Notes under the pieces: generated by a model
What the model was told of the DNA's origin: nothing
The model's input: the letters and a program-made list of their open reading frames with translations, nothing else
Database searches by the model: none
NCBI RefSeq assembly: GCF_016653315.1
Contig: NZ_NHSH01000054.1
Coordinates: 1 to 64,000 of the forward strand
DNA: 64,000 nucleotides
Direction: 5' to 3'
DNA from: Halochromatium roseum
GTDB lineage: Bacteria; Pseudomonadota; Gammaproteobacteria; Chromatiales; Chromatiaceae
Position numbers and translations under genes: made by a program
Shown: positions 6,292-10,641 of the stretch, in pieces
Layout of the letters: each line of letters starts with the position of its first letter
Position numbering within the stretch: the first letter of the stretch is position 1

Positions 6292-9287
<2,996 letters not shown>

Positions 9288-9446
9288 GTGGCATCTGGCA
9301 GCGACGATCGGGACGAAACCAAAAAGCACCTCGGTGACTGCTGAATTTGGCGGTTTGCGTCCCGATCTCTGACTAGGCAGATGTCGGCGGATGACGGAAG
9401 AACCCGGCCGAGTCCATACCACTCCACCCCTGATGAGATTATGATG

Positions 9447-9731
9447 ATGTCTGAGTTGAGCAAAGAGCAACAGATCCTCGTGGCGATGCGCAAGACGCTT
9501 GGCGCGATCGTCAAGGATGTAACCCCACCGCCTGGGATGAAACATCCGCTGTCCGAGAACACCATCGGTGATGTTCGTGCCTGCTTGTCATTGATTGCAG
9601 CGCGCGAGAAAGAACTCGCGGACAGTGAGGGGCGGGGGGGAGATCGGCCTTACTATGTAGATCAACCGCAATCAGCCCAGGTGGTGCCGATTGCAGGCAT
9701 TCGACGCACTGAGAAGCCGAGCGGTAACTGA
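9447..9731 (+). CDS. Small conserved protein, function unknown
   Basis: A 94-residue soluble protein beginning MSELSKEQQILVAMRKTL. Its first 60 residues are compact and helical, with TPPPGMKHPLSENTIGDVR followed by a helix ending ALREKEL-like in AAREKELA. The tail is polar and proline-containing. I have a weak memory of similar short proteins in sulfur-oxidising gammaproteobacteria but cannot name a characterised one. Three in-frame ATGs occur in a row (9441, 9444, 9447); the last gives the most natural start. It lies between ligA and the carbonic-anhydrase-like gene on the same strand, with no strong promoter visible. Confidence 0.6.
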   Translation: MSELSKEQQILVAMRKTLGAIVKDVTPPPGMKHPLSENTIGDVRACLSLIAAREKELADSEGRGGDRPYYVDQPQSAQVVPIAGIRRTEKPSGN

Positions 9732-9765: not shown

Positions 9766-10641
9766 ATGGCGATGAGTCGGTTTGCCCCTGTTTTTCTGCC
9801 TGTGCCGTTGGTGACCGTGAAACAAACGCTTCATCGCCTGGGCTGGCGGCGCGCCCTCTATGTGAGCGGTGCTGCGTTTCTGCTGTTGGCGGCAAACGCT
9901 CATGCTTGGCAGGCGCGAAGCTCCAATCTGTCGGGATCGGTTCCGGATTGGTCCTACAGTGGTGCGCAAGGACCCGGCCATTGGGCCGATTTGAACACCG
10001 CCTATGACCGCTGCGCCTCTGGGCGGCTCCAGTCACCGATCCCTATTGAGACCGCAGCAACGCTGCTTCAACCCTGCACCCCGCTGCGGTTCCGGTATCG
10101 GAGCAGCTCCCTGCACCTGGTGAACGACGGCAACGCGCTCAGACTCGGCTACGACCGGGGCAGCTATTTGGTGATCGACGGGCTCAGCTATGAACTGGTC
10201 GAACTCCGCTTTCATGTGCCCGGCGAGCACGCGATCGATGGTCGTCTCTCCGACGGCGAGATCGAGCTGATCCATGGCAACAACCGGGGCGACATTGCGG
10301 TTGTTTCGGTGTCGATCGAGGCTGGTAACCGCTCTAACCAGACCCTGCGGCGCATCCTCGACAATGCGCCCTTGGTGGCGGGGAAGAACGCTTATGGACG
10401 CAACATCGGTGTCAATGCCCTGTTCCTGCTGCCGGCTCGGCGCGCCTATTTTCGCTACGAGGGGTCGATGACGCGTCCGCCTTGTCAGGAGGGTGTGCAT
10501 CGTTATGTGATCGAGACGCCGCTCGAGATTGCCGCATCAGACCTGGCCCGGCTCGCCCAGATCGTCGGCTCCAATGCCCGTCCGCTGCAGGAGGTTGGCT
10601 CGCGCCAAGTCGAACGGCGCTGTGCGGCTGTTGGCGATTAA
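9766..10641 (+). CDS. Alpha-carbonic-anhydrase-like exported protein, zinc site degenerate
   Basis: The fold is clearly alpha carbonic anhydrase: WSYSGAQGPGHWADL (62-76), the DRCASGRLQSPIPI segment with the disulfide cysteine C83, and MTRPPCQEGVHRYV with the partner cysteine. A signal peptide ends at NAHA (44-47), so the protein is periplasmic. The usual FHFH zinc pair reads LRFH, putting arginine 148 where human CAII has His94 and keeping His150 for His96. The third ligand, normally in EAHFVH, reads EIELIH, so Glu167 replaces His119. Two of three zinc histidines are therefore gone, and CO2 hydration is unlikely. It resembles vertebrate acatalytic CA-related proteins, and a binding or structural role is inference. 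Threonine 199 and the disulfide cysteines of the family are retained. Confidence 0.85.
   Translation: MAMSRFAPVFLPVPLVTVKQTLHRLGWRRALYVSGAAFLLLAANAHAWQARSSNLSGSVPDWSYSGAQGPGHWADLNTAYDRCASGRLQSPIPIETAATLLQPCTPLRFRYRSSSLHLVNDGNALRLGYDRGSYLVIDGLSYELVELRFHVPGEHAIDGRLSDGEIELIHGNNRGDIAVVSVSIEAGNRSNQTLRRILDNAPLVAGKNAYGRNIGVNALFLLPARRAYFRYEGSMTRPPCQEGVHRYVIETPLEIAASDLARLAQIVGSNARPLQEVGSRQVERRCAAVGD

Follow-up and report, generated by a model that had tools for sequence, protein, structure and literature searches.

An open reading frame at positions 9,766 to 10,641 of the window, the whole 64,000-nucleotide stretch of Halochromatium roseum DNA that was analysed, probably encodes an exported, zinc-free and catalytically silent protein of the alpha-carbonic anhydrase (alpha-CA) fold, kept by selection in the Chromatiaceae family as a bacterial analogue of the animal carbonic anhydrase-related proteins (CARPs). 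The frame has an AGGAGG ahead of its ATG, and residues 69-284 match PF00194 (Carb_anhydrase) with E 9.9e-29 and 101.1 bits, against a curated cut-off of 27. An AlphaFold2 model built from 80 aligned sequences has a mean pLDDT of 93.3 and a pTM of 0.91, and it matches solved bacterial alpha-CAs with Z 32-34 over the first eleven matches. Profile and fold together make the protein a member of the alpha-CA family by homology. Its best solved relatives in sequence are the bacterial alpha-CAs 6im0 and 6eki (phmmer, E about 9e-45), and animal enzymes are much weaker matches (best about 8e-17); NCBIfam has no family for it. The earlier note, made from the letters alone, had described a secreted protein with an intact fold and intact disulfide cysteines. 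Profile alignment and modelling bear out the fold, the translation read by eye begins with a signal-like N-terminus, and the Cys83/Cys240 pair is present.

The features discussed here are listed below. Residue positions follow CA II, and the clade is the group of 67 Chromatiaceae-family proteins defined by the tree.

6292-7212, plus strand: zipA, conserved upstream neighbour (profile and locus comparison)
7209-9287, plus strand: ligA, conserved upstream neighbour (profile and locus comparison)
9381-9731, plus strand: orf116, conserved small upstream gene of no known family
9766-10641, plus strand: exported alpha-CA-fold protein with a broken zinc site, 291 aa (PF00194 and predicted fold)
9766-9906, plus strand: signal-peptide-like N-terminus, residues 1-47, with probable cleavage following AHA (translation by eye)
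10012-10014, plus strand: Cys83, canonical disulfide with Cys240 at 10483-10485 (alignment)
10075-10077, plus strand: Cys104, extra pair with Cys286 at 10621-10623 (clade cysteine count)
10132-10134, plus strand: Asn123, proton-shuttle position 64 (alignment)
10201-10203, plus strand: Glu146, position 92, where 72 of the 73 non-clade proteins have Gln (alignment)
10207-10209, plus strand: Arg148, zinc-ligand position 94 (alignment)
10213-10215, plus strand: His150, zinc-ligand position 96, the sole ligand retained (alignment)
10264-10266, plus strand: Glu167, zinc-ligand position 119 (alignment)
10471-10473, plus strand: Thr236, position 199, retained (alignment)
10474-10476, plus strand: Arg237, position 200, where 70 of the 73 non-clade proteins have Thr (alignment)
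10501-10503, plus strand: Arg246, position 209, where all 73 non-clade proteins have Trp (alignment)

Codons of about 15 to 35 (9,808-9,869 of the window) lie within a dispersed repeat that has 10 further copies in the genome at 78-88% identity. The N-terminal extension of the signal region is seemingly repeat-derived, and it is absent from the other genus members that were read. Between 9,200 and 10,800 no promoter-like site was found, and the sole terminator-like match there lies inside the frame; a plasmid search gave 182 records, every one below 60% identity.

phmmer alignments to 6im0 and 4xz5 place R148, H150 and E167 opposite the three zinc-binding histidines of those enzymes, and a 140-sequence alignment concurs. 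The CA II numbering is anchored on the same alignments. Where an active alpha-CA has three histidines at 94, 96 and 119, the H. roseum protein has R-H-E, in agreement with the earlier reading of Arg148 and Glu167 at the positions of CAII His94 and His119, with only the His96 equivalent left. The mature chain contains six histidines (72, 117, 150, 155, 170 and 245), and H150 alone occupies a ligand position. The changes extend beyond the triad to Q92E, H64N, T200R and W209R, such that the CO2 pocket and proton shuttle of an active enzyme (T200, W209 and H64) are here R, R and N. H64 and T200 are variable among active CAs; of the 73 unique non-clade proteins, 72 have position 64 filled in the alignment, and 71 of these carry His there. 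T199, E106, H107, E117 and H122 are still enzyme-like. As judged from the aligned residues, metal site, CO2 pocket and proton shuttle are all altered, and we strongly infer that the protein is catalytically inactive.

The broken site belongs to a whole lineage. Matches occur in 43 of 93 related genomes and in 111 of 210 genomes of the GTDB family, where they fall into two score bands. A species-genome scan, which kept 80 of 430 relatives, gave as the nearest holders Lamprobacter modestohalophilus (93%; Lamprobacter is a member of the Chromatiaceae), Halochromatium glycolicum, Thiohalocapsa, Thiocapsa, Thiocystis, Thiorhodococcus, Marichromatium and endosymbionts of Lamellibrachia and Escarpia. 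For the alignment, 190 proteins were reduced to 140 unique ones, 67 in the clade and 73 outside; 83 carry H-H-H and 57 carry broken triads (RHQ 11, DHQ 10, SHH 8, RHE 7, NHH 5, QHQ 3, EHQ 3, DHH 2 and eight single types). The tree was built by a quick method, with SH-aLRT and without bootstrap, from the 67 clade rows and 32 of the 73 others after removal of the triad columns. In this tree, a branch with SH-aLRT 100 sets the 67 unique Chromatiaceae-family proteins, 55 of them broken, apart from the rest; the 32 non-clade rows include two lone broken proteins, KHQ and EHQ. The earlier note had been right about the broken site; the protein it described is one member of a clade in which the triad is broken in many different ways.

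If H-H-H was never regained, it was lost seven separate times within the clade, a provisional count, above all at the deeper forks, and one of the forks behind it has a support of only 75. Such diversity of triads (17 types) fits a loosening of constraint at the old site better than the rise of a single new ligand site. H94, H96, H119 and T199 are all present in only 6 of the 67 clade members, versus 70 of the 73 proteins outside, and those six may still be enzymes. T199 is missing in 23 of the 67, and because 22 of these 23 keep His119, the site fails in two different ways. Five clade members (L183, L184, L185, L188 and L189) have an intact H-H-H with Ala in place of T199 and Thr at position 107, a possible further route to silencing the enzyme.

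Broken and intact versions share a locus. Homologues of ligA and orf116 stand alongside the gene in 30 of the 35 loci with longer flanks, and ligA-orf116 lies upstream in the same direction in 51 of the 67 clade members, comprising 44 of the 55 broken and 7 of the 12 H-H-H proteins; some of the remaining 16 have short flanks. Since both versions occupy the same ligA-orf116 locus, they are orthologues at one site, and the passage from enzyme to pseudoenzyme is therefore traceable residue by residue. As a source of function the neighbours were set aside: ligA, zipA and orf116 supply no biochemical hint, and for orf116 neither NCBIfam, searched up to E 1, nor Pfam, searched up to E 10, gives a match. 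The D-H-Q copies of tubeworm symbionts (L086, L089, L090 and L098) sit not by ligA but beside exported rhodanese-, thioredoxin- and YyaL-like frames, labels that were given by eye.

Homologues sharing Arg and Glu at these positions, which the earlier note had thought worth seeking, exist as seven unique R-H-E sequences from the genus of the H. roseum genome, and all seven compared keep the change. Their 21 pairs have Nei-Gojobori dN/dS values of 0.04-0.17, with synonymous sites mostly near saturation, and the Arg94 codon varies (CGC, CGG, CGT) while the residue is constant. Because the seven agree despite near-saturated synonymous sites, R-H-E is not a product of chance, and random decay or sequencing error as the cause of the triad is rejected. 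Several residues that are not typical of canonical enzymes are near-fixed among the 55 broken proteins (R112 in 54, R196 in 55, G215 in 55, N217 in 54 and F220 in 54), a sign that a new surface is being constrained. Eighteen of the 67 clade members, all of them from the RHE/RHQ/QHQ group, have both C104 and C286, and the remaining 49 have neither; their presence or absence as a pair suggests a gained disulfide tying the C-terminus to the domain.

We propose that the protein is secreted and would fold without zinc. Arg94, Glu92 and Glu119 would form a salt-bridge core where the metal used to sit, and with such a core in place the fold could be stable without the metal. Arg94 is found in 18 clade members, 17 in the Halochromatium-Thiohalocapsa group and one (L013) apart in the tree, and all 18 also have Glu92. 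However, Glu92 is present in 20 of the 37 broken clade members that lack Arg94, so the pairing is not exclusive and we put the salt-bridge core forward as a hypothesis. A periplasmic partner or ligand would be bound via a clade-specific surface formed by R112-S113, R189, R196 and R212-x-x-G-x-N-x-x-F. Since the zinc site is replaced much as in animal CARPs, the role is most likely one of binding rather than CO2 conversion.

The main rival is a rebuilt metal site, in which another metal would be held by H150 and E167, possibly aided by H155 or E165 from the second shell, for another reaction or for sensing of that metal. H96, H107, E117 and H122 are indeed retained in 53, 55, 54 and 53 of the 55 broken members. 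In zinc sites of engineered CA II, His can be substituted by Glu, Asp, Gln or Asn, and one of the structure matches, 1cvc, is an entry of this kind. Yet Arg94, present in those 18 clade members, is no metal ligand and would occupy the place of the metal, and the conservation of H122 is not telling because canonical enzymes keep it equally (73 of 73). We consider a rebuilt site unlikely.

It is quite improbable that the protein partners a separate, active carbonic anhydrase as its regulatory subunit or competitor. Elsewhere in the family, genomes hold a second, canonical alpha-CA, as the two score bands indicate, but the H. roseum genome has no second PF00194 match, so in that genome the protein has no active alpha-CA to assist or compete with. 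Nor does it have a PF00484 beta-CA, and its one CsoSCA is a carboxysomal enzyme of the cytoplasm. PF00484 is found in 147 of 204 family genomes but in 1 of 8 of the genus of H. roseum. A regulatory role of this sort is proposed for secreted CARPs by authors working on corals (PMC4981384). Residual carbonic anhydrase or esterase activity without a canonical zinc site is very improbable: T199, E106 and the fold are retained, but two ligands, T200, W209 and His64 are all altered. To a decaying gene that is bound for loss and retained only through linkage to ligA we give scarcely any credence, for although its many different triads would fit and passive linkage could explain the gene order, the low dN/dS, full-length frames, clade-wide fixed residues and a cysteine pair gained together all argue against it.

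A silent binding protein under selection is the reading we prefer. How rare broken triads are was gauged from 398 sampled genomes of the phylum. PF00194 was matched in 62 of them, with 69 matches besides the protein of H. roseum itself; the count covers 66, one misread frame and two partial matches being omitted. Sixty of the 66 readable triads are H-H-H and six are broken (NHH, KHQ, ERQ, QHQ, EHH and RHQ). In a comparison of 36 of the 67 clade rows, 25 of the 73 others and 26 of the 69 sample rows, all six fall outside the clade. Breakage of the triad is therefore a recurrent event in bacteria. The earlier note had called an exported bacterial case unusual, which holds in the sense of uncommon and not in the sense of exceptional. 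On the sequences compared, this case is set apart by the existence of an entire conserved clade with broken triads; such proteins are uncommon but not unique. The broken triads outside the clade are those of L224, L250, L253, L255, L256, L258, L097 and L110; L258 is R-H-Q, and L250 and L253 are a sister pair with KHQ and ERQ.

By this account the range of acatalytic carbonic anhydrases would come to include a conserved lineage of bacteria, some of which are in culture (Thiocapsa, Marichromatium and Thiohalocapsa), and a PF00194 match in purple sulfur bacteria should not automatically be called a carbonic anhydrase. More tentatively, and just short of what we would call probable, purple sulfur bacteria may have a CARP family of their own in which Glu92-Arg94-His96, often with Gln119, replaces zinc, an arrangement that animal CARPs would have reached independently. 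If so, an Arg-carboxylate core would be an outcome that evolution can reach repeatedly, one that makes the alpha-CA fold independent of its metal and available as a binding module.

We found no paper on this bacterial protein group in the open-access library searched, and the comparison is with better-known relatives. The bacterial alpha-CAs (6im0, 6eki, 4xz5, 4c3t and 1kop) share the fold, export, the cysteine pair and T199 and are the best matches in sequence and structure, but they have an H-H-H triad and a canonical CO2 pocket, and the H. roseum protein has neither. Dioscorin (4twl), a plant tuber protein, also has the alpha-CA fold (Z 31 to the model) and is likened by fold alone. The alpha-CA-type IMV membrane protein of poxviruses (4e9o, 5ush) employs the fold in binding, although it is a viral surface protein of eukaryotic CA type.

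Animal CARPs VIII, X and XI have likewise lost zinc histidines. A protein of the CARP kind lacks at least one of them in a kept alpha-CA domain; the H. roseum protein lacks two and is under selection. Human CARP VIII (2w2j) has YEVRFH where the H. roseum protein has VELRFH, a common E-x-R-x-H in place of Q-x-H-x-H, although 2w2j is not among the 50 structure matches listed, which are too few to exclude a likeness. Cnidarian CARPs often have H-H-H changed to R-H-Q, according to PMC4981384, and R-H-Q is also the triad of 11 clade members. The animal proteins act on partners: CARP VIII binds ITPR1 (PMC9032886), CA10 binds neurexin (PMC8024894), and CARPs VIII, X and XI raise transport by MCT1 (PMC6609565). 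The proton-antenna idea in the last paper depends, for CA II, on His64, which is lost in the H. roseum protein. In contrast to the animal CARPs, the H. roseum protein is of a bacterial sequence type, with a signal-like peptide and an R-H-E triad, and the likeness to them drawn here is one of residues and motif.
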